The position numbers and the translations under genes are program-made. A DNA stretch of 64,000 bases from Gemmatimonadaceae bacterium (GTDB lineage: Bacteria; Gemmatimonadota; Gemmatimonadetes; Gemmatimonadales; Gemmatimonadaceae): assembly GCA_019637355.1 (NCBI GenBank), contig JAHBVT010000001.1, positions 558,001 to 622,000 on the forward strand, in the 5' to 3' direction. The stretch's first letter is position 1. The number at the start of each line of letters is the position of its first letter. The notes beneath the pieces were generated by a model. That model was not told the origin of the DNA. It did not search any database and saw nothing but the letters and a program-made list of their open reading frames with translations. Of the stretch, positions 31,980-50,373 are shown piece by piece.

Positions 31980-32023
31980 TGGAACCCTCTGCTGAATGTG
32001 GTCGAGCTAGGGGACAACAACGG

Positions 32024-32698
32024 TCATTCCGGCGGCACGCCGCCGCGTTCGAGCAGCATCTGGAGCATCCGGCGGATCTCGGTGGACTGGTCCACCTCGA
32101 CGTCGGCGGCAAAGCGGAAGACGGTCTCGTCGATGGCACCGCCATCGCGGATGAGTTGCTGGACCATCGTCACGGCGCCGCGGTGGTGCGAGATCATCCG
32201 TTGGAGGAAGAGCAGGTTGAAGGCCTCGCCGCGGGCGGCATCGAGCTCTGCCAACTGGGCCTCGGAGAGCATCCCGGCCATCGTGCCGTGGTCGTGGTGC
32301 ATCCCGTGGCCGGCGCGTTCGTCGGCGGTGGCAGCGGGCGGCGGCGTGAGGACACCCTCGCGGCTGACACGCGGGAACGGGCGGCTGCGGTCGGCCAGCC
32401 AGCGCTGCATCAGCGTGATGTCGTCGGTCTGGGCGTTGATAATGCGCGCCGCCAGCGTCGCCAGCTCGGGGTCGCTGGTGTGTGTCGGCACCCACCGCGA
32501 GATGAGAATGGCCTGCGCGTGATGGCCGATCATATCGGTCATAAAGCGCAGGTCGGCCTCGGTGTATGGCAGGCGGATGGAGTCGGCTCGGATCTGGTCC
32601 TCGAGGGACCGGACCTGGGGGGCGCCGCCGGCTCCGCCGCGGGGGGCACAGGCCGCCAATGAGGCGGCCAGAAGCAACAGGATGGGGAGAGATCGCAT
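32024..32698 (-). CDS. DUF305-family lipoprotein (224 aa)
   Basis: Ferritin-like DUF305 domain protein. Lipobox LAAC puts the lipid on Cys17. Two histidine pairs mark the four-helix bundle: MTDMIGHHAQAI (His59, His60) and LFLQRMISHHRGAVTMV (His171, His172); an HGMHHDHGTM run lies between them. Proteins of this family bind copper or other metals in the envelope. The ATG is seven bases after a -10-like TAGTAT, so it may be leaderless. It precedes the LVIVD gene. Confidence 0.88.
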   Translation of the reverse strand: MRSLPILLLLAASLAACAPRGGAGGAPQVRSLEDQIRADSIRLPYTEADLRFMTDMIGHHAQAILISRWVPTHTSDPELATLAARIINAQTDDITLMQRWLADRSRPFPRVSREGVLTPPPAATADERAGHGMHHDHGTMAGMLSEAQLAELDAARGEAFNLLFLQRMISHHRGAVTMVQQLIRDGGAIDETVFRFAADVEVDQSTEIRRMLQMLLERGGVPPE

Positions 32699-32789: not shown

Positions 32790-34019
32790 TCAGCCCGCGC
32801 GCTCCAGAGTGAGCGTGTAGCGTCCGGTTTCGCCTTCGCTCAGCGAGTTGGCGTAGATGCTGTACCGGCCGGCCCGCTCCAGCGTGAACGCGATCTGCGC
32901 GTCGGTGGTGTCGGCGCCAGGGATGTCGTCGTTGCTCTCGATGAGCGCGCCGTCGGCGGTCCGGAGGCTGAGGTAGGCATCGAAGTCGGAGGAGCGCATC
33001 GTGATGATGATGCGCTCACCGGCGCGGCCCTCGAACGTGTAGGCGTCGTAAAAGGTGCCGTCGTCCTCGAGCACGCGATCGCCCTCCTGCAAGGTGCCGG
33101 AGACGGTCTGTCCGAAGGCGATGTCGCGGGTGGCCCGTGCGTCGCCGCTGGCCGTCGCGCCGCCGCCGAGCACCTCGGCCGCCGACCCGCCACCGCTGCC
33201 GTCTGCGCTGACCTCGAGCGAGTACTCGCCGGTCTCGCCGCCTTCGAACGAGCTCACCAGGATGACGTAGGTGCCCGCACGCTCGGCCGTGAAGCTGATG
33301 CGCGAGTCGAGGTCGTCATCGTTGTAGTCATCGTTGGAATCGAGGGCATCGTCGCCGCCGAGCAGCCCGATCCGCAGGAAGCTGTCGAAGTCCTCTGAGC
33401 GCTGCGTGACGGTGACGCGCTGGCCGGCGGTGAGGTCGAGATACCAGGCCTGCACGTGCGCGCCGTCCTCGAGGGTCTGGTCGTCGGCGGCGAGCGCCGC
33501 GGTCACGGTGCGTCCGACGCTGAGGCGACGTTGCGCGTTGACCGGCTGCGCGAGCACGTCGGCGACGGACATTCCTTGCCCCTGGGCCGGGGATGCAACG
33601 GCCAGCGTGTACTCGCCCGTCTCGGCCTCGGCGAAGGAGTTCGCGCGGATCACGTAGGTGCCGTTGGACGGCCAGGTGATGCGAATGCGTGCGTCCGAAC
33701 CGCCGGCGCCATCGTCGTTGCTCTCGAGCTGGTCGCCGCCGTGGCGGCCCACCGCGAGATAGGCATCGAAGTTGGAGGAGCGCAGTGTGATGATGGCGGT
33801 CTCGCCTTGGCGACCTTCGATGTACCAGAGGTGGTAGTGCGAGCCGTCATCGAGCGTCGGGTCGCTGGCGGCGAGGGCGGCGGTCTTGCTGTCGCCGACG
33901 CGGATCATCCGATCGCGGTTGACGGGCGCGCTCCAGGAATCTTGCGCGGCAAGGGCGAGCGGGGTGCCTAGCGCGGACGCGAGGAGGGCCAGCGTGGCGA
34001 TCGAGCGGGTAGAGCGCAT
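32790..34019 (-). CDS. Exported protein of three PPC domains (409 aa)
   Basis: Signal peptide MRSTRSIATLALLASALG is followed by three bacterial pre-peptidase C-terminal (PPC) domains, starting near residues 27, 143 and 287. Each has the same core: a GETIIT-type strand then SSNFDAYL, a DDD or NDD acidic loop, and YVIRANSFAEAETGEYTL. The acidic loops fit calcium sites. No catalytic domain is visible. It lies 31 bases after the stop of the six-PPC caspase gene, so it is co-transcribed and may be a partner or decoy with the same binding repeats. The start was chosen at the signal peptide. Confidence 0.85.
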   Translation of the reverse strand: MRSTRSIATLALLASALGTPLALAAQDSWSAPVNRDRMIRVGDSKTAALAASDPTLDDGSHYHLWYIEGRQGETAIITLRSSNFDAYLAVGRHGGDQLESNDDGAGGSDARIRITWPSNGTYVIRANSFAEAETGEYTLAVASPAQGQGMSVADVLAQPVNAQRRLSVGRTVTAALAADDQTLEDGAHVQAWYLDLTAGQRVTVTQRSEDFDSFLRIGLLGGDDALDSNDDYNDDDLDSRISFTAERAGTYVILVSSFEGGETGEYSLEVSADGSGGGSAAEVLGGGATASGDARATRDIAFGQTVSGTLQEGDRVLEDDGTFYDAYTFEGRAGERIIITMRSSDFDAYLSLRTADGALIESNDDIPGADTTDAQIAFTLERAGRYSIYANSLSEGETGRYTLTLERAG

Positions 34020-34050
34020 AGGAGACCTGTTGGCGAGAGAGAGGGGTGCA

Positions 34051-37000
34051 CTACTTGGTGCCGGCCGCGGCATCGTCACTGCCGCTGGCCCAGCTGACTT
34101 CGAGGCGATACCGCCCGCTGGCGCCGGCGGCGAAGGTGTTGGCGAGGATCACGTACGTCCCATTGGCCGGGAACGTGAAGCTGAGCTGGGAATCGGTGTT
34201 GCCGCCGGAGTCGTCGTCGTTGGCGAGGAGGCGCTGTTCGCCGTGCCGCCCGATGTGCACGTAGGCGTCGAAGTCAGACGAGCGCAGCGTGATGACCACG
34301 CGCTCGCCGGCGCGCCCTTCGAGATACCAGGCATCGAAAGGCGAGTCGTCGGTGAGCGTGCACGAGTCGGCGCCGAGGCTGCCGGTGACGGGCGTACCGA
34401 CGGTGATTCGGCGGGCCGGATCGACAGGCATCGCGAGCACGGCGGCGTTGGACATCGCGCTGCGAGTTGCTGCCGCGACGCCCCCGCCGCTCGCAGCACC
34501 GCCGCTCGGCGCACCTCCGCTGGTGACCTCAAGCGTGTAGGCGCCCGTGCTGCCGGGCCGCAGCATATTCGCGATGATCACGTAGACGCCGTCGCGCGGC
34601 AGGATCTGCGTGATGCGCGCGTCCGTGCCGCCGGCGCCATCGTCGTCGGTGGCCAGGGTGGCCGTGCCGCCCTGCACGCCGAGGTGCAGGAAGGCGTCGA
34701 AGTCGGCGGACTTCATCGTGATGGTGACCTGCTCGCCGGCGCGTCCTTCGTAGAACCAGGTCCCGAAGGCCGTGCGGTCGCGCAGCACGGGGTCCGACTC
34801 GGCGAGCCGTCCGCGGGCCGTCTGGCCGATTCGCAGCATCTGCGGCGCGGCGGGGCGCGCGGCGAGCACTTCGGCGATCTCGACGTGGGCGCGGCCGGCC
34901 CCGACCCGCAGCGTGTAGTCGCCGCGGGCGTCCTTGCCGATGGCGTTTGCCATCACGACGTAGCGCCCGGTGCGCGGGAAGGTGACGGTGAGGCGGGCGT
35001 TGGTGCCGCCGCCGCCATCGTCATCGTTGCCGATGATGCTGTCCGTTCCGGCGATGCCGATGCTGAGGTAGGCGTCGAAGCCGCTGGCTTCCATATCAAT
35101 CTGGACGGTCTCACCGGCGCGGCCCTGGAGCACGTAGCCGTTGAAGGGGGTGTTGTCGGTGCGCACGGGGCTACGCGCACTGAGCGTGCCACGCACGGGC
35201 TGTCCGGCCGCGAGGGCGGGGAACGAATCGGCCACCGCGAGCACGTCGCGATCGGTCATCGCGGTCCAGTCGATGCTGCTGCCGTCGCGCATCTCGAGCG
35301 TGTAGCGTCCGCGTCCGTTGGGCCGCAGCGCGTTGGCGACGACGGCGTACATCCCGTTGGCCGGGAGCGCGAGCGTGATGCGCGCATTGGTGCCGCCGCC
35401 GGAGTCGTCGTCGGTGGCGAGCACCTGCTTGCCACCCACCTGGGCGACGTGTAGGTAGGTGTCGAACTCCGCCGATCGCAGGTTGAGGGTCACGCGCTGG
35501 CCGGCGCGGCCCTCGAAGTACCACACCTGGAACGGCGAGGCGTCTTCCATCGCCTCGGTGGCCTCGGCGAGGTTGCCCTCGACCGACTGGCCGATGCGGA
35601 TGCGGCGATCGGTCGGCGCGCGGCCGATGACGTTCGCGGTGGCGACGGTCGGGAGCCCGGTGCGGATGCCGAGCGTGTAGGATCCGCTTGCATCGCGACC
35701 ATAGGAGTTGGCGAGGATGACGTAGCGTCCGGTGCGCGGCAGCCGCGCGACGATCAGCGCGTCGCTGTTGGCGCCGGAGTCGTCATCGCGCGCGACGACG
35801 GAATCACTGCCGGCCATACCGAGGGCGAGGAAGGCGTCGAAGTCCGTGGACTCCATCGAGATCTCGACGACCTGGCCGGCGCGTCCCTCGAAGCTGTAGG
35901 CGTCGAATGAGGATCCGTCGGTGAGCAGGGCGCTCTCTGCCGTGAGCGAGCCGCGCACGGTTCCGCCGATTTCGAGGCGCGGATGCTGATCTGCCATCCG
36001 CACAGCCTCGGCGAAGGTGACCTGCACGCGCGCGATGCTCTCGAAGGCGAGCGTGTAGTCGCCGAGCGCTGCCTTGTGGACGGCGTTGGCGACGATGGTG
36101 TAGTTGCCGTCGGCCGGAAGCTCGATGCTGATGCGTGCATCGGTGCCACCGCCGCCGTCGTCATCCTGGCGCACGGACTGCTGGCGGCCGTCGACGGCGC
36201 GGGTGAGGATCAGATACGGGTCGAAGGCCGACGAGCGCATCGTGATGGAGACGCGCTGGCCTTGGGTGCCGCGGAAGGTCCAGGCGTCGAAGCGCGTGCT
36301 GTCGTCGAGGACCGGTGAGCCGAGCGTGAGCGCACCGGTGATGGTCTCGCTGAGGCGAATCTCGCCGCCGCGTCGGCGCGTGGGGGTGGGGCGCGGCGCG
36401 GCGGAACCGGGTGCCGGCGCCGCCGAGCTGGGCGCGGCGGCGGGAGGGCGTCCGCCGGCTGGCGGCGGCGGTGGCGGTGGTGCCGCGCCAGCCGGCGCGC
36501 CGGTGCCGCGGGTGGGGCGCGCCCCGCCGACGCTGCTGCGCGAGGCCACGCGCCGCGCAACGGAGTCGCGGAGTGACGGCACGACACCGGTGATGCCCCA
36601 CTTGTGGTCGAAGGGCTGCACCTGCGGGACCTGCGCCTGGTTGGTCTCGGTGGAGACGCGGTCCACCACCCACATCCCGAGCTCGGCCAGGGTGACGTTG
36701 CCGTCGCCGTTGGCATCGGCCATTCCGTAGAGCCCGTTGAGCAGGAAGTAGGTGAAGGCGCCGTGCCCTTCCCACTGGTCGCCTTCCTGTGAGTCCTGCG
36801 TGCCCTCGCTGGAGACGAGGCGTCGGATGTTGGGACCGAGCGTCTGCGCAGCGCGGCTGAGCTGGTTGGAATTGAACAGCGTGCCCGAGCGGCAGGCGTC
36901 GAGGATCAGCAACACCGGGCTCTGGCCCGGCAGATAGCTCACTTCCTTATTGATGTCGTCGAGCGAGATGCCGCGGCGCGCGATGTTGGCGCTGTCCGCG

Positions 37001-37440
37001 TCGTGGGGCATCAGGTAGCCCTCGACGTTGTTGTGCACCTCTCGCACGCCACCGTGGCCGGCGAAGTACACGATGAGCTCGTCGTTCTCCTGCGTGGCCT
37101 CGACGAGCGATCGGTAGGTGTCGAGAAACTTCTCGCGCGTGGCATCCTGATTGAGCAGGATGACCATCGTGTCCACGTTGGCGGCCGAGGCGGGCGAGCG
37201 GAGCCAGCCGACGAAGGCCATCGCGTCGACGGAGGCGTAGCGCAGCTGCGGTATGCGCCGGTCCTGGTACTGGTCCACCCCGACGATGAGGGCGCGTCGC
37301 TTCCCGGTAACGCGCTGCTGGGTGCTGCGTTGCGGGATGACGCCGCGGGTGCCCGGGTCCTGGGCGGCGACGGGGACGGCATCGAGGCCCGCGGCGAGGG
37401 CGAGGACGAGGATGAGGCGGAGCGCGGCGCGCGGGGTCAT
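34051..37440 (-). CDS. Exported caspase-fold peptidase with EF-hand and six PPC domains
   Basis: An 1129-aa exported protein. Signal peptide to about residue 27. Caspase (C14) domain at about 47-310: RRALIVGVDQY, catalytic His129 in YFAGHGG and Cys183 in LDACRSG. A canonical EF-hand loop follows the dyad at 242-253 (DANGDGNVTLAE, ligands D242, N244, D246, N248, T250-side and E253), so calcium control as in metacaspases is plausible. A Pro/Ala linker (about 315-355) leads to six PPC domains, each about 115-130 aa, with the DDD acidic loop and FDAYL/FDAFL strand. The PPC array may bind the substrate or the cell surface. It is the second gene of an operon (38016 to 32790), 75 bases after a small exported protein. 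Confidence 0.9.
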   Translation of the reverse strand: MTPRAALRLILVLALAAGLDAVPVAAQDPGTRGVIPQRSTQQRVTGKRRALIVGVDQYQDRRIPQLRYASVDAMAFVGWLRSPASAANVDTMVILLNQDATREKFLDTYRSLVEATQENDELIVYFAGHGGVREVHNNVEGYLMPHDADSANIARRGISLDDINKEVSYLPGQSPVLLILDACRSGTLFNSNQLSRAAQTLGPNIRRLVSSEGTQDSQEGDQWEGHGAFTYFLLNGLYGMADANGDGNVTLAELGMWVVDRVSTETNQAQVPQVQPFDHKWGITGVVPSLRDSVARRVASRSSVGGARPTRGTGAPAGAAPPPPPPPAGGRPPAAAPSSAAPAPGSAAPRPTPTRRRGGEIRLSETITGALTLGSPVLDDSTRFDAWTFRGTQGQRVSITMRSSAFDPYLILTRAVDGRQQSVRQDDDGGGGTDARISIELPADGNYTIVANAVHKAALGDYTLAFESIARVQVTFAEAVRMADQHPRLEIGGTVRGSLTAESALLTDGSSFDAYSFEGRAGQVVEISMESTDFDAFLALGMAGSDSVVARDDDSGANSDALIVARLPRTGRYVILANSYGRDASGSYTLGIRTGLPTVATANVIGRAPTDRRIRIGQSVEGNLAEATEAMEDASPFQVWYFEGRAGQRVTLNLRSAEFDTYLHVAQVGGKQVLATDDDSGGGTNARITLALPANGMYAVVANALRPNGRGRYTLEMRDGSSIDWTAMTDRDVLAVADSFPALAAGQPVRGTLSARSPVRTDNTPFNGYVLQGRAGETVQIDMEASGFDAYLSIGIAGTDSIIGNDDDGGGGTNARLTVTFPRTGRYVVMANAIGKDARGDYTLRVGAGRAHVEIAEVLAARPAAPQMLRIGQTARGRLAESDPVLRDRTAFGTWFYEGRAGEQVTITMKSADFDAFLHLGVQGGTATLATDDDGAGGTDARITQILPRDGVYVIIANMLRPGSTGAYTLEVTSGGAPSGGAASGGGVAAATRSAMSNAAVLAMPVDPARRITVGTPVTGSLGADSCTLTDDSPFDAWYLEGRAGERVVITLRSSDFDAYVHIGRHGEQRLLANDDDSGGNTDSQLSFTFPANGTYVILANTFAAGASGRYRLEVSWASGSDDAAAGTK

Positions 37441-37515
37441 CGGACGAAGGCGGTAGGGAAGGGCCGACGCACTAACCTGCGACGGCTTGCAGAGGGGGGC
37501 AATGGGCGGACGGCG

Positions 37516-38016
37516 CTACTGGTGCAGCATCCACTTGAAGTCCCGCCCGGCCGGGCATTCCACGAGCCGCGGACCCCACGTGGATACGGAGCCGTCAGTG
37601 AAGCCGGCACGCGCGTAGAGCCGCGTGGGGCCGGCCACCACGAAGGTGAAGAGATCGCCCCAGGGCGAGACGTCGCCGCGGAAGATGCCTTCGGCGTAGA
37701 CGGCGATGTAGAGGCTGGTGCGGTTGTCGTAGTGCACCTTGCAGGCGGTGCTGTTCCGCGCGGCATTGCCGGAACTGAACTTTGAATCCGGCGGCAGCTC
37801 GCCCGGTTCGCCTCGAATGTTGACACCGCTGATGGCGCGGATGTTCTCATCCTGTGCCGGATCGCTGGTCCCACGTGCCGTGGCCGCCCGATCGCGGGCC
37901 TTGCCGGCCGGCTTCCCCTGGCCTGCAAGCGGAGCTGCGGCGACTGCCAGCGTGATGAGGGCAGCGAATGCGCAGGCGGCGTGACGGACAGCTCGACGGG
38001 GACGGACCGGCATCAT
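37516..38016 (-). CDS. Small exported protein upstream of the PPC caspase (166 aa)
   Basis: Unrecognised. The signal peptide CAFAALITLAVAAAPLAGQ cleaves near residue 32. The mature part has a basic linker, two Cys in the second half (KVHY after the first, VECPAG around the second) that could form a disulfide, and a compact beta-rich end with YIAVYAEGIFRG and WGDLFTFVVAG. It opens the minus-strand operon with the PPC caspase and PPC-only gene, so it may be a partner or substrate. ATG at 38016 (or the adjacent ATG at 38013) is preferred, with GGAG 10 bases upstream. Confidence 0.7.
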   Translation of the reverse strand: MMPVRPRRAVRHAACAFAALITLAVAAAPLAGQGKPAGKARDRAATARGTSDPAQDENIRAISGVNIRGEPGELPPDSKFSSGNAARNSTACKVHYDNRTSLYIAVYAEGIFRGDVSPWGDLFTFVVAGPTRLYARAGFTDGSVSTWGPRLVECPAGRDFKWMLHQ

Positions 38017-38324
38017 ATGGAAGGGCTCCAGCGGAAACGAGAAGGACGAGTCACTAGCGCGCATAGTGCATAGGGCGTGGGCGGCGACGCAACCATCGTG
38101 TGTCACCGTCTGCAATCGCTGTGACGGGACCGGATTGCGCGACGATGGTATTCGTCGCTTCTTCTATGTGTTCCATCGGTTCCGGCGATGGCGCGCGCGA
38201 TCTCGGTGACGTGAATCACGAGGGCACGCTCGAGTGCGGAACCGTGGAATCGAAGCGGAACACGCGGTGTAGCAGGCCGCGACCTCAACGACTGCACGCC
38301 ACTCCCCACCTCGTTCCCGACGCA
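38017..38324. other. Divergent control region of the caspase locus (308 bp)
   Basis: Gene-free gap between two divergent operons. It must hold both promoters. On the minus strand ACTATGCG at about 38053-38060 could be a -10 for the leftward operon. I see no clear operator palindrome, only weak inverted pairs. An open frame from 38100 reads into the rightward caspase gene, but the signal peptide starts at 38325 and the extension has no coding character. Confidence 0.5.
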
Positions 38325-40616
38325 ATGCATCGCCCGATCGCCCGCTGCCTCTGGCTCGCCAGCTTCGCCGTCATCACGTCATCTACCGTCGCCGAGGCGC
38401 AGACCAAACGCGCCGTGCTTGTCGGCATCAACCGCTACGACGCCGTGAGCGCCCCGGCTGGATCGCAGCTCGCTGCCACCGCGACGACGCGACGCATCAC
38501 GAACCTCAACGGCGCGCTGAACGACGCGACGGCGATGCGCGACCTCTTGGTCGGACGCTTCGGGTTTCCGGCCGCCAACGCGCGGTTGATGACGGACGGC
38601 GAGGCGACGCGTGACGCGATCATCGCGGCCGTGAACGAGACGTTGGCGCAGTCGCAGCCGGGCGACGTGGTGGTGTTCTTCTATGCAGGGCACGGCTCGC
38701 AGCGGCGCAACACGCTGTCGCCGAGCCCGAGCCGGCTGGACCAGACGATCGTGACGGCCGATGCCAACATCGGCGCCTACGACATCCGCGACAAGGAACT
38801 CGGACGGCTCTTCAATCCCTTCCTCGACAAGGGCGTGGAGCTGATCCTGATCTTCGACAGCTGCCATTCCGGTTCGATCACGCGCGGCGGTCTCTCGCAG
38901 GCAGTCGAGCGCTGGGCGGCAATCGACGAGCGCGATGCCGCCGACCCCGGGATGGCACGCGACGAGTCACCCGATCGCCGCGGTGCGCTGGTGATCTCGG
39001 CGGCGCAGGACTATCAGAGCGCGTTGGAGCGACCGGACGCGACGGGCAATCCGCGCGGCATCTTCACGGTGTCGTTGATCGAGACGCTCAACACCGTGCC
39101 GCCCGGCGAGTCGGCGGTGAACGTGTTCCGCCGCCTGCGCGCACGGATGCAGATGGACGGCGTGCCGCAGGAGCCGGTGCTCGACGCGACGATGCAGCGC
39201 CAGCAGCGCCCGGTCTTCGGCGGCGCGTCAGCGGGCGACGGCAGCACCTCGGTCGCGGTGCTGCGCGTCTCGTCGGGCGGCGTAGAGTTGCAGGGCGGGC
39301 CGGCGTTGGGCATCCGGCCGGGTGCGGTGCTGCGCAAGCTCTCCACGGGCGCCGACTCGAGCATCCGCGTCACGGTGGACAGCGTGCTCGGCATCAGCCG
39401 GACGCGCGGCCGCGTGACCACCGGCTCGGCGAACCGCGTGCAGGTCGGTGACTTGTTCGTGCTGGAGCGTTGGGTGTCGGCGCCCAGCGCGGGAATTACG
39501 CTGTATGTGCCGCCAAGCGGGCCCGACCGCGCGACGCTCGAAGCGGTGGCGGATTCGATCAGCGAACTGCGGGGCGAGGACGGCATCGAATGGCTGGACG
39601 ACCTGGCGCAGCTCCCTGCCGACTCACTGCCGTTCTTCGTGATGCAATGGACGGGTGCGGGCTGGGAGCTGCGTCAGAGCGGCGGTGCGGCCATCGCGCT
39701 GCCGCGGCGTCCCACGGCCGCGGTGCTGCGTGAGCGCTTGCTGCGCGCCAAGGGCGATGCGCCGGCGGCGCGATTCTTCCTGAACCTCCCTCCGACGGCA
39801 GCAGTGGCGTCGCAACTACGCGCCGCGTTCCCGAGCGGGAGCTCGGTGGTGCTGGGCACGGAGCTGGCGACGGCGACCTACGCGCTGGTCGGCCGCATCG
39901 GCGGTGCGGGCATTCAGTACGCGCTCGTGCAACCGACGGCGTCGCAGGCGTTGGCGCAGACCTCGCCGCTGCCGCTGCGCACCGACTGGACCGAGCTCGG
40001 TGACGGCGACGCGAGCGGTTTGCGTGAGCTGACGGACAAGGCCTTCACGCTGGCGCGGGTGCGCTCGTGGTTCCTGCTCGAGGCGCCGCCGGGGGGCGCG
40101 AGCTTCCCGTACCGCCTGGCATTCCGGCGCCTCTCGGACAACGCGCTGCGTACCGAGGGCGAGTTCCGTGCGGGCGAGACCTATGAAGTGGAACTGGTCG
40201 CCGATTCAGCGGCGGTGACGAACCGCATCGAGCGCCGCCGCATCTATGTGTTCGCGATCGACTCGCACGGCAACGCCGGATTGGTCTACCCGCAGGGGGC
40301 GAACGTCGAGAACCGCGTGCCCTTCGACCGCGGACCCGACGGGCGCTGGCCGACGAACATCCCGCTGGGCCCGCAGAGTCAGTTTGGAATCGGGGCGCCG
40401 TTTGGCGTCGACTCGTTCCTGCTGCTGGCTTCGGACGAGATCATCGAGCCCTGGGCCTTCGAGTGGTCCGGCGTGCGGAGCGCGACGCGCGGAGCCGGCT
40501 CCGGTCCACTGTCGGATCTGCTTGGGGGCACGGGTACCCGGACCCGAGGCACCGTGACCCAGGCGCCGCTGAGCTGGTCGCTGGATCGCGTTGTTATCCG
40601 TACTATTGACCGTTGA
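38325..40616 (+). CDS. Exported caspase-fold peptidase with DUF4384-like tail
   Basis: A 763-aa protein with a signal peptide ending AEA near residue 25 (WLASFAVITSSTVAEA). The caspase domain covers about 28-310: RAVLVGINRYD, catalytic His123 in FFYAGHGS and Cys180 in FDSCHSG. The residues after Cys (SITRGG) and the acidic loop match orthocaspase/metacaspase type C14 rather than animal caspases. The middle contains a beta-rich segment, and the C-terminal 150 residues resemble DUF4384 (RIYVFAIDSHGNAGLVYPQG). The first gene of the four-gene rightward operon; 38 bases to the M48 gene. Export of caspase-like enzymes suggests an envelope role. Confidence 0.9.
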   Translation: MHRPIARCLWLASFAVITSSTVAEAQTKRAVLVGINRYDAVSAPAGSQLAATATTRRITNLNGALNDATAMRDLLVGRFGFPAANARLMTDGEATRDAIIAAVNETLAQSQPGDVVVFFYAGHGSQRRNTLSPSPSRLDQTIVTADANIGAYDIRDKELGRLFNPFLDKGVELILIFDSCHSGSITRGGLSQAVERWAAIDERDAADPGMARDESPDRRGALVISAAQDYQSALERPDATGNPRGIFTVSLIETLNTVPPGESAVNVFRRLRARMQMDGVPQEPVLDATMQRQQRPVFGGASAGDGSTSVAVLRVSSGGVELQGGPALGIRPGAVLRKLSTGADSSIRVTVDSVLGISRTRGRVTTGSANRVQVGDLFVLERWVSAPSAGITLYVPPSGPDRATLEAVADSISELRGEDGIEWLDDLAQLPADSLPFFVMQWTGAGWELRQSGGAAIALPRRPTAAVLRERLLRAKGDAPAARFFLNLPPTAAVASQLRAAFPSGSSVVLGTELATATYALVGRIGGAGIQYALVQPTASQALAQTSPLPLRTDWTELGDGDASGLRELTDKAFTLARVRSWFLLEAPPGGASFPYRLAFRRLSDNALRTEGEFRAGETYEVELVADSAAVTNRIERRRIYVFAIDSHGNAGLVYPQGANVENRVPFDRGPDGRWPTNIPLGPQSQFGIGAPFGVDSFLLLASDEIIEPWAFEWSGVRSATRGAGSGPLSDLLGGTGTRTRGTVTQAPLSWSLDRVVIRTIDR

Positions 40617-40654
40617 ATTTCCATCCACTGTCTCACCTCACACCATCCAATCCA

Positions 40655-42553
40655 ATGCACTCGCTCCGTTCGCTCATCGCTCGAAGTCTCGCCGCGCTGC
40701 TGGTGGCCGGCGTGGTCGCACCGGTCCTCGGCGCCCAAGCGCTCCGTGCGGCCGACAATATGTACACGGTCGAGGAGCTGCGGAGCATCGCAGACCAGGT
40801 GATCCGCGATCGCGTGCAGCGCTTTGGGCGCGACACCGACCCGCAGCGTCGGGCGGATATCGGCGGGCTGATCAACACGATCCAGCGCACGGTGGGTTAC
40901 AGCGCGCACCCGCTGAAGTGGGAGATCGTGATGGACTCCTCGTTGAACGCCTCGGCGATCCCAGGCGGCGGGATGCTGATCAACGTCGGCCTCGCGCTGT
41001 ACTGCGACCAGTACGCCGGCCCGCGATCGGGTAACGACGCGACGCGTAAGCGGCGCATCTATATGGGATGCCTGGCGGCGGTGATCGGCCACGAATTCGG
41101 GCACCTTGAGCTCGGTCACACCGAGAACCTCGGCCAGACGATCAATCGTCGGCAGGAGATGCAGCGACGGTTGCGAATGGCCTCGAAGTTCAGCGAGGCG
41201 GTGCGTGACTCGGTGCTGATGGCGGCGACGCGCTTTGAGCGGAACCAGGAGCTGGAGGCGGACCGCGCCGGTGCAATCTACATCCTGCGTGTGGGCTACG
41301 AAGTGCAGGACGCGATCGACCTCTTTGACTCGATGGACCGCGACGAGCGCAACAGCCCGGCGTGGCGCAACCGCATCACCTGGACCGGAGGTCACCCGCG
41401 CTCGGCCGAGCGCGTGGCGATGCTGGAGATTGCGCGTGGCGAGCTGAAGCTGCTGCAGCGCGACTACGACGACGCGATCGCGCTGATCCAGGCCGAGGAA
41501 CTGCCGGACACGGCGCTGGCGATGCTGGACCGCGTGTTGGCGGCCTTCCCGAACCTGGCGGCGGCGCGGCACGCACGCGCGGTGGTGCTGGCGCAGCAGT
41601 GGCTGGCCGGTGCGGACCCGAGCGAGCTGCGCGTGCGCCCGATGCTGCCGGCCTACGACGCCCGCTTTATGGGCTCGATCCGCGGTTCGAACCCGAACCA
41701 GGGTCGGGCGGCCCGAGCGCCTGCCCGCGAGGCGTTCACGGCGCTGTTCCACCGCGACGCGCATCCGTACACGCTGGCGAACCTGGCGGTGATCGAGGCC
41801 TACGACGGCGACATCAACGGGGCCATCGAGAAGGCGAACCTCGCGGCATCGAAGGCGCCGCGTGACCCGGCGGTGCTCAACAACCTCGGCATCGTCTTGT
41901 TCCTCGCCAACCGCAACGCCGAGGCCAAGGACGCCTTCCAGCGTGCGGAGCAGGCGGCGGGCAACAATCCGTCGCCGCAGATCCTGTTCAACAACGCGCG
42001 CATCGCGGCGGCCACGGGTGACAACGCGTCGGCCGCGCGCTACGCCAGCCGCTACCTGCAGCGTGATCGCGGGTCGAACTGGTCGCGCGAGGCGCAGACA
42101 CTCGGCGGCACTGGCGGCGGCAATGCCGGTGGCAACGCGGGTGGTGGTAACGCCGGCAGCGCCGCGCCCGCGGCGCGCACGGCGCCGATGCCGAGCATCA
42201 ACGGCGCGGAGCTCGGTGCCGCGCGCTCGCGCCTCGTGGCAGCGCTGGGCGAGCCGGACGGCGGCCAGGACGCGGCGGGCACGGTGTGGCGGTATCCGGC
42301 CCGCGGCCTGACCGTACTGCTCGACGAAGAAGGCCGTTCGAAGATGTTCATCGTCGAAAGCCGCGCCGGCGGAGCGCTCGGCGGCGTGACCGTCGGCGAC
42401 CGATACGACGCGGTCACCCGCGCACAGGGCCAGCCGGATCTGGAGCAGCAGGCGCAACAGGGGACGGTGTACCGCTGGAATCGCGGCGGCTGGAACCTCC
42501 TGACCATCGTGAACAACGGAGCCGTTATCGCCGTCGGTGCTGGCCGAAACTGA
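40655..42553 (+). CDS. Exported M48 peptidase with TPR-like and SmpA-like repeats
   Basis: A 632-aa protein with signal peptide (LAALLVAGVVAPVLGAQ, cleavage near 28). Zinc site H146-E-F-G-H150 and third ligand Glu201 in ELEADRAG place it in M48, similar to BepA/YfgC, which handles outer-membrane proteins. TPR-like helices follow at about 265-460, then a Gly/Asn-rich linker (about 482-500) and two short repeats with GAARSRLVAALGEP and VGDRYDAVTRAQGQP that recall SmpA/OmlA (BamE) domains. ATG at 40655 is chosen over a TTG at 40613 overlapping the caspase stop. Two bases separate it from the next gene. Confidence 0.87.
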   Translation: MHSLRSLIARSLAALLVAGVVAPVLGAQALRAADNMYTVEELRSIADQVIRDRVQRFGRDTDPQRRADIGGLINTIQRTVGYSAHPLKWEIVMDSSLNASAIPGGGMLINVGLALYCDQYAGPRSGNDATRKRRIYMGCLAAVIGHEFGHLELGHTENLGQTINRRQEMQRRLRMASKFSEAVRDSVLMAATRFERNQELEADRAGAIYILRVGYEVQDAIDLFDSMDRDERNSPAWRNRITWTGGHPRSAERVAMLEIARGELKLLQRDYDDAIALIQAEELPDTALAMLDRVLAAFPNLAAARHARAVVLAQQWLAGADPSELRVRPMLPAYDARFMGSIRGSNPNQGRAARAPAREAFTALFHRDAHPYTLANLAVIEAYDGDINGAIEKANLAASKAPRDPAVLNNLGIVLFLANRNAEAKDAFQRAEQAAGNNPSPQILFNNARIAAATGDNASAARYASRYLQRDRGSNWSREAQTLGGTGGGNAGGNAGGGNAGSAAPAARTAPMPSINGAELGAARSRLVAALGEPDGGQDAAGTVWRYPARGLTVLLDEEGRSKMFIVESRAGGALGGVTVGDRYDAVTRAQGQPDLEQQAQQGTVYRWNRGGWNLLTIVNNGAVIAVGAGRN

Positions 42554-42555
42554 GT

Positions 42556-44001
42556 ATGCGTGAAGTAGTTGCAGGACTCGTCCTCCTCGCCGCGGCGGCT
42601 TCGCCGCTCGCGGCGCAGGAGCGGCGGGGGATCGTAGAGATCGAGCACCGCAGCGGCAACGCGCGGTTCATCTACATCGACGGAACGCGCGCGGACACGA
42701 GCGAGGTGGGGGCGAACCCCACCGTGCGCGTGCCCCGCGGCGTGTCCGTGCAGGTGCGCGTGGTGGGGACGAACACGGCGCTGTATCGCTTCGGCACCAA
42801 GGCGGAGGTGCAGCCGGCGCCGGACCTCGACGCCGTGCGGTCGTTGGTGCTGCGCTCGGCGCCGTTTATGCCCGAGCTGCGCACGGTGGCCTCCGCGCTC
42901 GGCGGGCGCGGGGGCGAGGACGCCGCCGAGGCGGAAGCCGCGATGGCCGATGCCGACCGACGGTTGCTGGAGGAGACCACGCTCGGGGTACGCAATGCAC
43001 TCGGGCGGGTGGACCGCGCCGTATACGGGCGTGCCGGGCTGCAGCAGTACCTGACGACGACGCTGTATGCGCTGGAGCAGATGCGCCTCGGTGAGCGGCC
43101 GGAGACGGCGGCGGAGGAGTTGCAGGCGCTGCTCCCACAGCCCGTGGCCTGCGGCGATGATGCCCCGGTGCGGCTACGCACGGCGCAGGAGCTGCTGGCG
43201 GGCGTGTTTTCGGCGGCGCGCGCGCAGGCCGAGCTGAGCGATGCCATCGGCGGCCCGGCGTACCCGGGGCAGCTCGCGTGGCGCAGCGCGTACGACACCG
43301 CGTTGGTGGTGGAGGCGCGGGCGCACGACGCGCTGGCGGAGTTTGAGTCGCTGGTGGGCACCGCGTACCGCCTGGAGCGGTTGGCTGGCGTGGTGGCGGG
43401 CGCGTGCTCCGTGCGCGACGTCGGCAGCGCGACGCCTGGCCTGACCAGCGGCAGTACGATCACCGTGACAGTGACGCCGCGCAGCGAAAGCGAATTGCTC
43501 CGTGTGGCGGACCTCGGCTCGGCCAGCTGGACGGTGACGGTGCAGCGCCGCGTGATGCTGGGGACGGCGCTGAGCATCGGCGGGGCGGTGTCGCCGCAGG
43601 CGCTGTTCCCGATCTACGGGACGTCGGCGGTGGGCGGCGGGTACGAGGTCGTCGAAACGGGCGCGGTGGATGCGCGCTTCGGCGCCGCAGGGATGTTGGG
43701 CTTCACCTATGGCGTGTTGGACCGGCGCGAGGAGAACGGGACGGCCATCTGGTTCCCTGAGTTCGCGGTGACGGCGGTGCGGAATCCCGGCTTCGGCGTG
43801 GGCGTCGGCTATAGCTGGAACACGCTGCGCCTCGGCGTCGGTGGAATGTGGACTCGCCGTCGCGTGCTCAACGGTACGCCAGTTGGCACGTTGCTCGCGG
43901 ATCCCTCGGAGCTGCGCCAGACGGATTCGTACGGGCGCCCGGAGCTGTATCTGTCCCTGTCCGTCTTTGACTGGTCGCCGTTGGCGCGTCGGTTGCAGTG
44001 A
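42556..44001 (+). CDS. Exported envelope protein of unknown function (481 aa)
   Basis: Signal peptide MREVVAGLVLLAAAASPLAA cleaves at about residue 21. The N-terminal domain (about 25-80) is beta-rich (RFIYIDGTRADTSEVG). A long helical middle (about 110-300) holds a Cys near VACGDD and another in GACSVRD. The C-terminal 150 residues have repeated Gly-aromatic strands such as GFGVGVGYSWNTLRLGVGGM and end in a hydrophobic strand (YLSLSVFDWSPL), which suggests an outer-membrane barrel or its partner. No family recognised. It is the third gene of the caspase operon, two bases after the M48 gene and overlapping the pseudocaspase start by 4 bases. Confidence 0.75.
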   Translation: MREVVAGLVLLAAAASPLAAQERRGIVEIEHRSGNARFIYIDGTRADTSEVGANPTVRVPRGVSVQVRVVGTNTALYRFGTKAEVQPAPDLDAVRSLVLRSAPFMPELRTVASALGGRGGEDAAEAEAAMADADRRLLEETTLGVRNALGRVDRAVYGRAGLQQYLTTTLYALEQMRLGERPETAAEELQALLPQPVACGDDAPVRLRTAQELLAGVFSAARAQAELSDAIGGPAYPGQLAWRSAYDTALVVEARAHDALAEFESLVGTAYRLERLAGVVAGACSVRDVGSATPGLTSGSTITVTVTPRSESELLRVADLGSASWTVTVQRRVMLGTALSIGGAVSPQALFPIYGTSAVGGGYEVVETGAVDARFGAAGMLGFTYGVLDRREENGTAIWFPEFAVTAVRNPGFGVGVGYSWNTLRLGVGGMWTRRRVLNGTPVGTLLADPSELRQTDSYGRPELYLSLSVFDWSPLARRLQ

Positions 44002-45065
44002 GCGCGGTCCGCGGCCTGCGCCGCACGTGGAGTGTCGTGGTCGCGCTTGCCCTCGCCTGCGCGCCGGCGACGCGGGCTGCGCCGGGCGCGCGCGCGATCG
44101 ACGCGCGCCCGGTGCTGCACATCGTCTCCATCGCGATCGAGGACTACGCGCCGCCGCTGGAGCGGCAGCCCGGCGCGCTGCAGTCGGCGGTCGCGCTGCG
44201 AGACTCGCTGCGCGCGGTCGCAGGCGCTGTGTATGCTGTCCGTACGCACGCGCTCAGCGGGGCGGGGGCCACGGCGACTGCCGTCCACGCTCTCTTGAGC
44301 ACCATCGCGCGGGACATTCGCGCCGACGACCAACTGTTCCTGTACTTCCGGGGCGCCGGTAGCGCCTCAGCCCTGCACCTCGCAGATGGCGGTACGCTGC
44401 GGCCCAACGAGCTCGGCGGCTGGCTGGCCAAGCTGCGCAGCCGAACGCAGGTGGTGGTGCTCGACGCCGCGGATGCGGCGGGGTTCATCCACGCGATGCG
44501 CCCCAAGCTGACGGCGCCGCGCGAGGCGCTGCGTGCCGCCCGTGACCTCACGGCGTTTGGCGTGCCGGGCGCGCCGGTGATGGTGTCGGACCTGCGCGGC
44601 CGGCAGCAGACGGCACTGGGCGTCGAGTTCCTGCGCGCCTTGGGTGACGAGCGGCGCGCCGCGCGGGTGGTGCTGGCGTCGGCGTTGGCCACCCGCGTGC
44701 TCGAGCGGATGGACACGCCGGTGATGGTCTATCAGTCCGGCCGCGACCTCGTGCTCGGCGCGCGAGCCGAGCCGGCCGCGCTGGCCGATGCCGCGGCCAT
44801 CCGGGACACGACGCCGTGGCGGACCACCTGCGGCGCATCCTGCCCGATGATCACCGTGACGGCGGTGGAACAGCGCATCACGCTGGTCGGGCGCGCGCCG
44901 GAGCTGGCGCCCGATGCGCTGGTGTTCGTGAACGGCCGGCGCGTGCGCTGGATGGGTGACCGCTTTGAGGTGGAACTGCCGCCCGGAGCGCTGCGCCTGC
45001 CGCTGCGCGTGCGCGCGCTCTTGCCCGACGGCAGCCGCCTGGAGCAGGCGCTACCGCCGCCCTGA
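43998..45065 (+). CDS. Exported caspase-like protein with both catalytic residues replaced
   Basis: A 355-aa protein with an N-terminal hydrophobic signal (VVVALALAC, perhaps lipid-anchored at Cys21). It follows the caspase plan: LHIVSIAIEDYAPPL, ALRDSLRAVAGAVYAVRTH, a helix ending in ADDQLFLYFRGAGS, and QVVVLDAADAAGF. Against the active paralogue at 38325, the FFYAGHGS block reads LYFRGAGS (Ala120 for catalytic His) and FDSCHSG reads LDAADAAG (Ala158 for catalytic Cys). It is therefore a likely pseudocaspase, suited to scaffold, inhibitor or activator duty. The GTG start overlaps the upstream stop, the last gene of the operon. Homology is from segment pattern and needs a profile search. Confidence 0.78.
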   Translation: MSAVRGLRRTWSVVVALALACAPATRAAPGARAIDARPVLHIVSIAIEDYAPPLERQPGALQSAVALRDSLRAVAGAVYAVRTHALSGAGATATAVHALLSTIARDIRADDQLFLYFRGAGSASALHLADGGTLRPNELGGWLAKLRSRTQVVVLDAADAAGFIHAMRPKLTAPREALRAARDLTAFGVPGAPVMVSDLRGRQQTALGVEFLRALGDERRAARVVLASALATRVLERMDTPVMVYQSGRDLVLGARAEPAALADAAAIRDTTPWRTTCGASCPMITVTAVEQRITLVGRAPELAPDALVFVNGRRVRWMGDRFEVELPPGALRLPLRVRALLPDGSRLEQALPPP

Positions 45066-47058: not shown

Positions 47059-50000
47059 ATGTCCCGATTGGTCGACCCGCGCGCACTCGTCGCCGCGCTG
47101 CTGCTCAGCATCGTCCCCGCGCCCACGTCGGCGCAGAATGCACTGGATCCCGAGGTCGCCGCTGCCGACGCCCGCCGCGTCGCGGGTGATACGGTCGGGT
47201 TGGTCGCCCAGTATGAGCGCGCACTGCAGCGGCTCGAAGCCGCGCCCGCACCGAACGCACGTTCCATAGAGCAGGCACTGCGCGGGCTGTCGATCCTGCA
47301 CTTCCGCCAACGCAACACGGCGGCGGCGCTGGCATACCAGGAGCGCCTCGCCCCGTTGATGGACTCGGTCGCCGGCCCACAATCCTTGGCGACGGCGCAG
47401 GAGTGGCACAACCTGGGCGTGCTGCGCTCGATGGCCGGGCGGCAGGACGATGCGCTGGTAGCCAGCGAGCGTGCGCTGGCGGTGCGTGAGCGCGAGCTCC
47501 CGGCGGGCGACGCGCTGACGAAGACGACGCAGCGCCAGCTCGCGACCTCCCTGCGCGACCGGGCGCGTCGCGCCGCACAGTCCGGCGCGCTCGTGAATGC
47601 CTGGAACGACTATGACCGCGCGATGAAGCTCTCCGAGGCGGCGGACGGACCGGACGCCGAGCCGACGCTGCAGGCACTGCTCGGGCTCGTGCAGCTTTTC
47701 GACGCGATCGGCAGGTCGGGAGACTCGCAGGTGCTGATGGCCGTTGGGCCGCAGCGTGCCGTCGCCGTGGGAGAGCGCGCCCTCGCCGTGCTGCAGCGCG
47801 AGTTCGGCGCGGATGACCAGCGGGTGCGCCGCATCGCCGCGGACCTCGAAGTGATGCGCACAGGCGCAACGGCGATGTCGATCGACCCACGCGCCACGCG
47901 CGATGCGGCGGCGCGGGCCGCAGCGGCCGCGGAATCGGCCTACGGCCCCGACACGCGAGAGACGGCGCAAGCGCTGCTGCGCCTCGGCGTGGCGCAAGGC
48001 GACCTGCGCGAGTTCGCTGCGGCCCGTACCACGCTCGAACGCGCCTTGGCGATCCGCACGCGCACGGACGGCGCCGCATCGGAGCCGGTGGCAGAGCTCC
48101 AGCGCCGGCTCGGCGATCTCCTGCGCGCCGAACGCCGGATGCCCGAGGCGCGCGCGCAGCTCGAACGTGCGCTGGCGACCGCCGAAGGCGCGCTCGGCCG
48201 CGACGCCGCCGGCCTCGCGCCTTTCCTGCGGTCGCTCGCCGGCCTGATGGGCGACCTCGGCGATCAGCAGCAAGAGCGGGCTCTGGTCGCGCGGGCCGAT
48301 CGCGTCGAAGGGGCCGCGACGGCCGGCGCTGGAAGCCCGGAGGCTGCGCTGCGCGACGTGCTGCGCGCGACCGAGCTTGAATCGCGCGGCGACCGCGCCG
48401 GGGCACGTCGGCTGCGCGAGGGCGCGCTGCGCACGCTGGAGCCACAGTTTGGACCGAGCCACATCATCGTGGCGACGGTGCAGTTTGCGCTGGCGCGGGA
48501 CCTCATCGCGCTGGAGGACTACGCCGGCGCCGAGCGACTCGTGCGGCGCGGGATGGAGACGGCGGCGAACACTTTCGGCGTGGAGTCGCCGGAGTACGCC
48601 GTGGCGATGACGATGCTCGCCAGCGTCGCGTCGGCGCGAAAGGACTATCCGGAGGCCGAACGCCTGCTGCGGCAGGTGGTCGCGCTCAACGACCGCACGC
48701 TCGGGCCTGGGCATCCACAGGGCTTCGCGCGGCGCTTCGACCTGGCGGACGTGATGCTCACGCAGCGCAAGTTCGATGAGGGCGGACGCTACGTGCTGGA
48801 GTCGGCGACGCTCGTGGACCGCTACGCGCGCGAGATCCTGCCGACGCTCTCGGTGGCCGAGCAGCAGGCATTCCTTGAGACGACGCTTCCGTACGCGACG
48901 GCCTTCCTGTTGATGAGCGCGCACGCCTCGCCGGATCTCGTGCCCGCGGCCTACGACCGCTTGGCCGGCTGGAAGGGCCTGCTGCTGCGCGGCATCGACC
49001 GGCAAGCGGCGGTGGCGCGGCTGGCCGACGATCCGCGCGCGCGGCAAGACGTGCAGCGCGTGTCGGTCGTGCGCGGCGAGCTAGCGTCACTCGTGCAAAA
49101 CGTATCGTCGATGGAACCGGCGGCGTACCGGCAGCATCTCGAGCGGCTCACGAACGAGAAGGAACGCCTCGAGCGCAGGCTTGCCGAGCTCGTGCCGGAG
49201 GCGCCGGATGCTTGGCGGGGCAGCGCCGCGCTGAGCGCGCAGTTGCCACTGGGTACGGCGTTCGTGGATGTATTCCGCTCCGGGGCCGGCACGCAGGCGC
49301 GCTACGACGCCATCATCACAGTCGCGCGCCGTGCTCCAATCAAGGTTGACCTCGGTCCGGCGGCGCGCATCGAGCAGCGCGTGGCGGCCTGGCGCACGGC
49401 CGTGACCGGCGATCGCTTTGCCATCGACGAGTTCTGGGCCTTGGTGAGCGCGACGATCGATCCGATCGCGCGGGCGCTGCCGGAGAAGCTCGCCTTCGTG
49501 TGGATCAGCCCCGACGCGCAGCTCTCGCGTGTGCCGTGGGCGACGCTCGCCGCGTACAACGACCGGATCAAGGACGCGCAGGCGGCACAGGTGCCGTCGG
49601 CGCGGGCGCTGGTGTCGTTGTTGGCGGCGCCGACGCTAGCAGACGGCGGCGACCTCGTGCTGGTGGGCGACGTGGACTTTGAGGCGGGCCCGCGCGCCGC
49701 GCAGCGCCCGAGCACGCGCTGGACGCCGTTGCCTGGCACGGGGACCGAGGTGCGCGCCATTGCATCCATCGCCGACAGCGCGAAGGTGCCGACGCGGCGC
49801 GTGGCGGGTGCGACGGCCACGCCGAGCGCGGTGACGCAGGCCTTGGTGGGTGCGCGCGTGGCGCACCTCGCCACGCACGGCTTCTTCTTTGGCGAAAGCG
49901 AGGCGGTGTACAACAGCCGTGGCGTGGTGGGCGTGGCGCCGGCGGGTCTGAACGCCGCGCCCGCCTCACGCAATCCGCTGGCCGAGAGTGGGCTCGCACT

Positions 50001-50373
50001 CGCAGGCGCCAACGTGAACGCGGCAGGGAACCTCACGGCCGAGCAGATCCTCGGGCTCGACCTGCGCCGGCTCAAGCTCGTGGTGCTCTCCGCCTGTGAG
50101 ACGGGCCGCGGCGCCGAAGTCACGGGGCAGGGTGTGCTCGGCTTGCAGGCGTCGCTGCTCGCGGCCGGCACGCGGGGGATGCTGATGAGCCTCTGGAAGG
50201 TGCCGGACGAGAGCACGGCCTTCTTGATGGAACGCTTCTACATCTACTACCTCGACGGCTACGCCGCGCCGGTGGCGCTGCGTCAGGCGCAGGGCGACGT
50301 GCTCGGGCGCGAGGAGTTCAAGAACCCCGTACACTGGGCCGGCTGGGTGTTCGTGGGCGGGCGCGACGGCTGA
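47059..50373 (+). CDS. Exported TPR-CHAT peptidase (1104 aa)
   Basis: Signal peptide ending TSA near residue 25 (LVAALLLSIVPAPTSA). Many 42-residue TPR repeats occupy about 45-600, including ATAQEWHNLGVLRSMAGRQD and RLGVAQGDLREFAAARTTLE. The CHAT domain, a caspase-relative in clan CD, covers about 780-1100 with catalytic His940 in HLATHGFFFGES and Cys1013 in LVVLSACETGRG. CHAT proteins are best known as separase-like proteases; here the enzyme is exported. The gene stands alone, not linked in operon, but lies within 2 kb of the pseudocaspase operon. ATG is preceded by a TAGAAT element. Confidence 0.92.
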   Translation: MSRLVDPRALVAALLLSIVPAPTSAQNALDPEVAAADARRVAGDTVGLVAQYERALQRLEAAPAPNARSIEQALRGLSILHFRQRNTAAALAYQERLAPLMDSVAGPQSLATAQEWHNLGVLRSMAGRQDDALVASERALAVRERELPAGDALTKTTQRQLATSLRDRARRAAQSGALVNAWNDYDRAMKLSEAADGPDAEPTLQALLGLVQLFDAIGRSGDSQVLMAVGPQRAVAVGERALAVLQREFGADDQRVRRIAADLEVMRTGATAMSIDPRATRDAAARAAAAAESAYGPDTRETAQALLRLGVAQGDLREFAAARTTLERALAIRTRTDGAASEPVAELQRRLGDLLRAERRMPEARAQLERALATAEGALGRDAAGLAPFLRSLAGLMGDLGDQQQERALVARADRVEGAATAGAGSPEAALRDVLRATELESRGDRAGARRLREGALRTLEPQFGPSHIIVATVQFALARDLIALEDYAGAERLVRRGMETAANTFGVESPEYAVAMTMLASVASARKDYPEAERLLRQVVALNDRTLGPGHPQGFARRFDLADVMLTQRKFDEGGRYVLESATLVDRYAREILPTLSVAEQQAFLETTLPYATAFLLMSAHASPDLVPAAYDRLAGWKGLLLRGIDRQAAVARLADDPRARQDVQRVSVVRGELASLVQNVSSMEPAAYRQHLERLTNEKERLERRLAELVPEAPDAWRGSAALSAQLPLGTAFVDVFRSGAGTQARYDAIITVARRAPIKVDLGPAARIEQRVAAWRTAVTGDRFAIDEFWALVSATIDPIARALPEKLAFVWISPDAQLSRVPWATLAAYNDRIKDAQAAQVPSARALVSLLAAPTLADGGDLVLVGDVDFEAGPRAAQRPSTRWTPLPGTGTEVRAIASIADSAKVPTRRVAGATATPSAVTQALVGARVAHLATHGFFFGESEAVYNSRGVVGVAPAGLNAAPASRNPLAESGLALAGANVNAAGNLTAEQILGLDLRRLKLVVLSACETGRGAEVTGQGVLGLQASLLAAGTRGMLMSLWKVPDESTAFLMERFYIYYLDGYAAPVALRQAQGDVLGREEFKNPVHWAGWVFVGGRDG

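Follow-up and report, generated by a model that had tools for sequence, protein, structure and literature searches.

An apparently new exported combination of caspase, CHAT, M48 and PPC proteins at a divergent locus of a Gemmatimonadaceae bacterium

Introduction

Bacterial caspase and CHAT proteases have mostly been studied as cytoplasmic defence or death effectors, and the locus described here raises the question of whether such proteases can also be exported together and work as one system at the cell envelope. The locus lies in a 64,000-nucleotide stretch of DNA from a Gemmatimonadaceae bacterium (the window: bases 558001-622000 of contig 1 of a 3.15-Mb genome), where two tight gene sets between 32790 and 45065 diverge from a 308-bp gap. 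An initial annotation of the sequence had proposed that these seven genes, A to G, encode a proteolytic cascade at the envelope, perhaps triggered by calcium. The best reading of our comparison with relatives is of interchangeable parts (caspase, CHAT, M48 and PPC proteins) around one exported caspase, the product of gene D. That this module is a functional unit is likely, while its description as a modular exported proteolytic system centred on D is plausible and, in our judgement, an even call.

The locus and its exported products

All seven open reading frames were confirmed at their positions, with C, B and A reading leftward from the gap in that order and D, E, F and G rightward, and with short gaps or overlapping genes within each arm. 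The genes of the locus, together with a protease gene further downstream, are as follows.

32790..34019, minus strand: A, exported protein with three PPC domains (PF04151, 86.3 bits, 3 stretches)
34051..37440, minus strand: B, exported caspase with an EF-hand-type loop and six PPC repeats, 1129 amino acids (Pfam)
37516..38016, minus strand: C, small exported protein of 166 amino acids, no Pfam match, conserved partner of D
38017-38324, no strand: divergent intergenic region of 308 bp, candidate site of both promoters (from the sequence)
38325..40616, plus strand: D, exported caspase with a long C-terminal region and a DUF4384-like tail (PF00656, 75 bits)
40655..42553, plus strand: E, exported M48 metallopeptidase with TPR and a C-terminal two-repeat domain (PF01435, 52.4 bits)
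42556..44001, plus strand: F, exported protein without known domain, no Pfam match, local addition
43998..45065, plus strand: G, exported or lipoprotein pseudocaspase, weak caspase/C13 matches, local addition
47059..50373, plus strand: exported TPR-CHAT protease (PF12770, 188.9 vs 24 bits; TPR_12, 127.6 bits)

The leftward composition given in the initial annotation (a 166-residue protein, a caspase with an EF-hand and six PPC domains, and a three-PPC protein) was upheld by Pfam and by eye. On the rightward side the caspase, the M48-TPR peptidase and the pseudocaspase stood, while the "barrel-like" label attached to F was backed by none of the tools applied. The extent of the cluster held for its seven genes but overlooked the TPR-CHAT gene, which lies 2 kb downstream of G and 6.4 kb from D, carries a signal sequence and the dyad motifs THG and SACETG, and is one of only two CHAT genes found in the search of the window's genome. 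We regard this gene as a probable member of the module.

In D, the PF00656 match is above the cut-off and the catalytic dyad is intact (YAGHG / DSCHSG). In a fold comparison restricted to the caspase domain, the predicted structure matched metacaspase 4 with a Z of 23.6, the model of D being reliable for parts, chiefly the catalytic domain, with moderate confidence over about residues 310-580. The dyad of B is also intact (YFAGHG / DACRSG), and this protein passes the cut-off for PF00656 (Peptidase_C14) at 59.7 bits and matches PF04151 (PPC) at 101 bits, with six repeats counted by eye and four stretches passing individually in Pfam. With a caspase fold and a His-Cys dyad, B and D are Peptidase C14 members of the metacaspase type, and by analogy with metacaspases both probably cleave after Arg or Lys. 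The DUF4384-like tail earlier ascribed to D was indeed matched by PF14326, yet below the cut-off (18.2 vs 27 bits; 20.3 for the D of a Rhodothermales genome). In E, the M48 motif HEFGH is kept and TPR was matched by Pfam, whereas the C-terminal two-repeat domain gave no Pfam match, and the idea of a BamE- or BLIP-like fold for it is a sequence pattern only. A structure model of E built from two sequences reached a predicted local distance difference test (pLDDT) score of 39 and was discarded. For C, the best match among solved structures had an expectation value of only 0.6, and its fold is therefore left unassigned.

Sec-type signal sequences were seen by eye and in a crude scan at the start of all seven products, each with a basic N-region followed by a hydrophobic stretch and a cleavage-like site, as had been claimed for the whole set. 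The scan is lax, with 29 of 50 open reading frames positive, and so supports export without proving it. Within the gap at 38017-38324 no sigma-70 consensus was matched, and promoters there are for this reason presumed only; scans for sigma-70 promoters and terminators gave scores at or below shuffle level.

Distribution and linkage of D and its partners

To follow the locus in relatives, the whole D protein was searched against 298 genomes of the phylum, and C and E were searched as profiles, in a loose first pass from which few candidates were scored. With the whole-D query, many caspases aligned in the catalytic domain; matches over the full length came only from the window's genome and two others (G032, 42%; G019, 37%), or 3 of the 298. 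Clear matches to C were found in four genomes (the window's, G032, G019 and G022), a fifth match of 22.7 bits in a long unrelated open reading frame being discounted. The E profile exceeded 200 bits in four (the window's, G019, G032 and G045) and gave at most 57 bits in all others. All three genomes with D also carry C and E, each within 15 kb of D. The hypergeometric chance of each overlap is about 1e-6, and that of D with C is 7e-5 without the window's own genome; since the sequences used for the C and E profiles had initially been picked up in the vicinity of D, the informative part of this result is the single clear copy near D. A PF00656 family search of the window's genome returned only D and missed B, and negative family searches are accordingly not used as proof of absence.

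Within the phylum, the partners are arranged in several ways. G032 has C directly ahead of D and, at a distance of 12.8 kb, E surrounded by three CHAT genes; between the CHAT genes and the C-D pair of this genome are also a subtilase (PF00082) and an open reading frame with a borderline sigma-70 region 2 match (locus L035, 6377-8604). D and E of G019 are divergent genes separated by a 264-bp gap, with a Sel1-repeat caspase after D and with C 6 kb away. The same Sel1-caspase follows D in Gemmatimonadaceae bacterium ES-bin-51 (locus L040), whose genome also has a full E that begins 230-350 bp from the edge of a contig, in agreement with the arrangement in G019. Two close caspase genes each were also noted in G019 (L037, 7004-11324) and in G294 (L038, 378-6426); these have no obvious signal sequence in the starts examined and represent a different paired-caspase locus. 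In G022, C adjoins a CHAT gene, and another contig carries three caspases, one of them a PPC-caspase lipoprotein, together with a PPC-only protein; G124 has a similar cluster. Beside this cluster in G022 (L049, 12492-13779) is a pair of genes whose sequences resemble those of an anti-sigma factor and an ECF sigma factor, and it is possible that the pair regulates the cluster. In G045, from another family of the same order, a B-type caspase with TPRs replacing PPC (locus L071, 37% identity) begins within 56 bp after E and is followed by another exported caspase and then by an exported protein whose final stretch is PPC-like.

The association extends to other phyla, in loci that come from metagenome-assembled genomes. 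In a Rhodothermales contig (L041), the TPR-CHAT, D and M48-TPR genes overlap or abut as one operon, which an M28 peptidase adjoins. The GC content of this contig is 57%, against 65-73% in the Gemmatimonadota loci, and this counts against mis-binning. An Acidobacteria contig (L042) carries a shorter D, and a CHAT gene terminates 1.4 kb upstream of it. A search of 394 genomes from the phylum to which the Rhodothermales genome belongs yielded D in two further cases, G447 and G637. D of G447 is divergent from a PPC-caspase lipoprotein gene across 185 bp, and a third caspase and an exported protein with two PPC domains are adjacent, a composition that matches the caspase and PPC genes of the window; in G637, a Sel1-caspase and a PPC-caspase lipoprotein flank D. 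The loci with these PPC-caspases beside D are L112 and L113. Because G447 and G637 were fetched by D alone, they provide an independent test of the association between caspases and PPC proteins. Full-length D orthologues were found in G032, G019, L040, L041, G447 and G637, in addition to the shorter form in L042.

These results indicate that D is the hub of the set, with partners drawn from E, the TPR-CHAT protease, the PPC-caspase, the Sel1-caspase and C. The proposal of an exported, caspase-centred locus is supported, since its parts recur together in several genera of the family, in a second family of the same order and outside the phylum. Shared synteny in at least three genera was found for part of the locus, to which F and G do not belong.

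Genes outside the conserved set and the calcium loop

Homologues of F with 25-30% identity were found in four other genomes (L004, L092, L093 and L094), and no caspase lies near them in the stretches of these genomes that were examined. These homologues form an exported family that has no name and occurs in a different gene context, and F was rejected as a core member because they sit away from caspases. G has a lipobox-like LALAC, a weak C13 match of 19.1 bits and a PADLOC caspase match of 16 bits; PF00656 was not matched in the Pfam scan, and the catalytic His and Cys are both replaced (GAG / DAADAAG), such that the name "pseudocaspase" is given by similarity only. No orthologue of G scored above 25 bits, and the candidacy of G as a conserved pseudocaspase was dropped on that ground. 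F and G are outside the conserved set, and the idea of a fixed seven-gene unit is unsupported. On the leftward arm, A has an ATG start and the signal sequence MRSTRSIATLALLASALGTPLALAAQ, and a PPC-only exported protein of this kind also adjoins caspases in loci L049, L095 and L113.

B has a canonical EF-hand-type loop (DANGDGNVTLAE). The loop is complete in B only; it is interrupted (DTDPKDGVVT) in the nearest relative, in L071, and none was seen in 11 other caspases inspected, while the third caspase of G447 shows a degenerate version. Calcium control is unsupported because the loop is not conserved among the inspected caspases, and the trigger was rejected.

Proposed mechanism and alternative explanations

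Given these arrangements, we considered how the parts might act together. The proposal is built on gene content, the intact catalytic residues of B, D, E and the CHAT protein, the signal sequences and the clustering of D. After Sec export the site of action would be the periplasm or the outer membrane, where a regulator-like protease of clan CD, either the TPR-CHAT protein or a caspase carrying PPC or TPR repeats, would bind a target through its repeats and then activate or process D. D would in turn cut substrates after Arg or Lys, like metacaspases, which prefer these residues at P1 and many of which need calcium (PMC4357240). E would finish or clear the fragments or act on outer-membrane proteins like BepA, C and the dead caspase G could serve as inhibitor, adaptor or substrate, and the divergent region would co-regulate both arms. 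The anti-sigma/ECF sigma-like pair beside the sister cluster in G022, as read from its genes, suggests control of the envelope-stress type. An activation cascade of this kind is possible, though we place it somewhat below an even judgement. More tentative still is the fuller form of the reading, in which an exported CHAT protease or PPC/TPR-caspase activates an exported metacaspase, the downstream components being the M48-TPR peptidase and a small dedicated regulator; this would make the set a so far undescribed class of envelope signalling or execution system, a multi-protease cascade common to Gemmatimonadota, Rhodothermales-type bacteria and possibly Acidobacteria. If true, the recurrent exported caspase/CHAT/M48/PPC set would place caspase-type proteolytic signalling in the bacterial envelope as well. 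The three-gene Rhodothermales form offers a concrete small operon for testing the order of activation.

Several observations weigh against this proposal. No single partner is common to all D loci: in eight D-bearing genomes, C is present in 3, CHAT in 4 and E in 5 (in G312 on another contig). D was found in none of the 11 same-genus genomes of the sample, and the set is patchy, which may reflect horizontal movement or frequent loss. Signal sequences alone are no proof of location. Such genomes may contain many C14 and CHAT genes, and the background caspase counts are unreliable, B having been missed by the family search of the genome that encodes it. The substrate, the trigger and the order of cleavage are hypothetical, and a BepA-like role for E is argued from the M48-TPR layout only, because its structure model failed (pLDDT 39).

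Among the alternatives, a set of secreted proteases for scavenging or predation, exported independently and clustered only by shared regulation, would explain why A and B are rich in PPC domains, which are named for secreted peptidases, and would accommodate both the subtilase between CHAT and C in G032 and the M28 peptidase beside the Rhodothermales set. We consider it unlikely, since caspase and CHAT proteases are usually regulatory, with narrow specificity, and not digestive, since a pseudocaspase and a small conserved non-enzyme such as C fit a regulated system better, and since D is tied to particular partners. A second and similarly improbable explanation is an envelope-located conflict or death system, in which exported caspases would execute or restrict self, kin or attacker once an intruder is sensed by CHAT or the repeat proteins. 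Bacterial conflict systems often use caspase and CHAT domains as effectors (PMC7159879, PMC8195603), extracellular or fratricidal roles have been proposed for exported metacaspases (PMC3501461), and the set is patchy between close relatives, like defence loci; against this, no known defence core gene was seen, the PADLOC matches were to the generic caspase model only, B and D fall well under the cut-off for EACC1-type caspases, and none of the products was recognised as a toxin or pore-former. That loosely related exported proteases have merely gathered in a variable genomic hotspot, without shared function, agrees with the absence of a universal partner of D and with F and G as local additions, but is very unlikely, given that D, C and E, all of them rare, occur together in the same genomes at short distances from one another, that CHAT, D and M48 overlap as an operon in Rhodothermales, and that the divergent PPC-caspase/D layout recurs in G447, which was fetched only because of D.

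Neighbouring genes in the window

Two lipoprotein-like genes follow A on the same strand (29979-32698, minus strand), with gaps of 91 and 44 bp, and the leftward transcript may extend into both.

32024-32698, minus strand: lipoprotein-like gene, 224 amino acids, resembling DUF305 by eye
29979-31979, minus strand: lipoprotein-like gene, 666 amino acids, resembling LVIVD-repeat proteins by eye

A pseudopilin-like cluster of three genes with prepilin-type N-termini (GxTLxE) lies at 28-2140 on the minus strand.

Comparison with known systems

The caspases of the window share their catalytic fold and dyad with the prokaryotic metacaspases or orthocaspases (MEROPS C14B; PMC3501461), in which fusions to Sel1 and TPR are common. 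A 2012 survey of this group recorded operons with up to three caspases and probable signal peptides, both in bulk, as well as one putative Gemmatimonadetes caspase in which the dyad is absent (PMC3501461), and DUF4384 has been reported with cyanobacterial orthocaspases (PMC7475262). No description of a linked exported set of D-type caspase, M48-TPR, TPR-CHAT and PPC-caspase was found in the text of the survey that was searched.

The EACC1- and EACC2-caspase conflict systems (PMC7159879, PMC8195603) resemble the locus in joining a caspase with variable partner domains and a link to the membrane, and some EACC2 loci have ECF sigma neighbours, as the sister cluster in G022 has an anti-sigma/ECF-like pair beside it. 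They differ in that the caspases of the window themselves carry signal sequences and sit with M48, CHAT and PPC proteins. B (83.4 bits) and D (53.1 bits) both score below the cut-off of 140 bits for the EACC1-type caspase model NF047832, and no neighbour was called as the EACC1 one-helix protein in family-model scans, short open reading frames not having been searched.

In Craspase, a TPR-CHAT protease (Csx29) cuts its dedicated partner Csx30 when the sensor fires (PMC11106740, PMC10028731). The likeness lies in the TPR-CHAT clan CD protease and offers a model for how CHAT might act on D, whereas Craspase is cytoplasmic and RNA-guided (Cas7-11) and the CHAT protein of the window has a signal sequence and adjoins exported caspases. 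E shares the exported M48-then-TPR layout of BepA, an M48-TPR protease of outer-membrane assembly that is among the closest solved structures of E. It fails the BepA equivalog model NF052400 (20.2 vs 570 bits) and, in contrast to BepA, has an extra C-terminal two-repeat domain and adjoins caspases.

The view that no system of this composition had been described agrees with our search of the open-licence literature, in which no description of the caspase-CHAT-M48-PPC combination was found, nor of CHAT with caspase and M48 or of PPC with caspase. The enzyme families of the locus are therefore known ones, and it is their exported combination that is apparently new.

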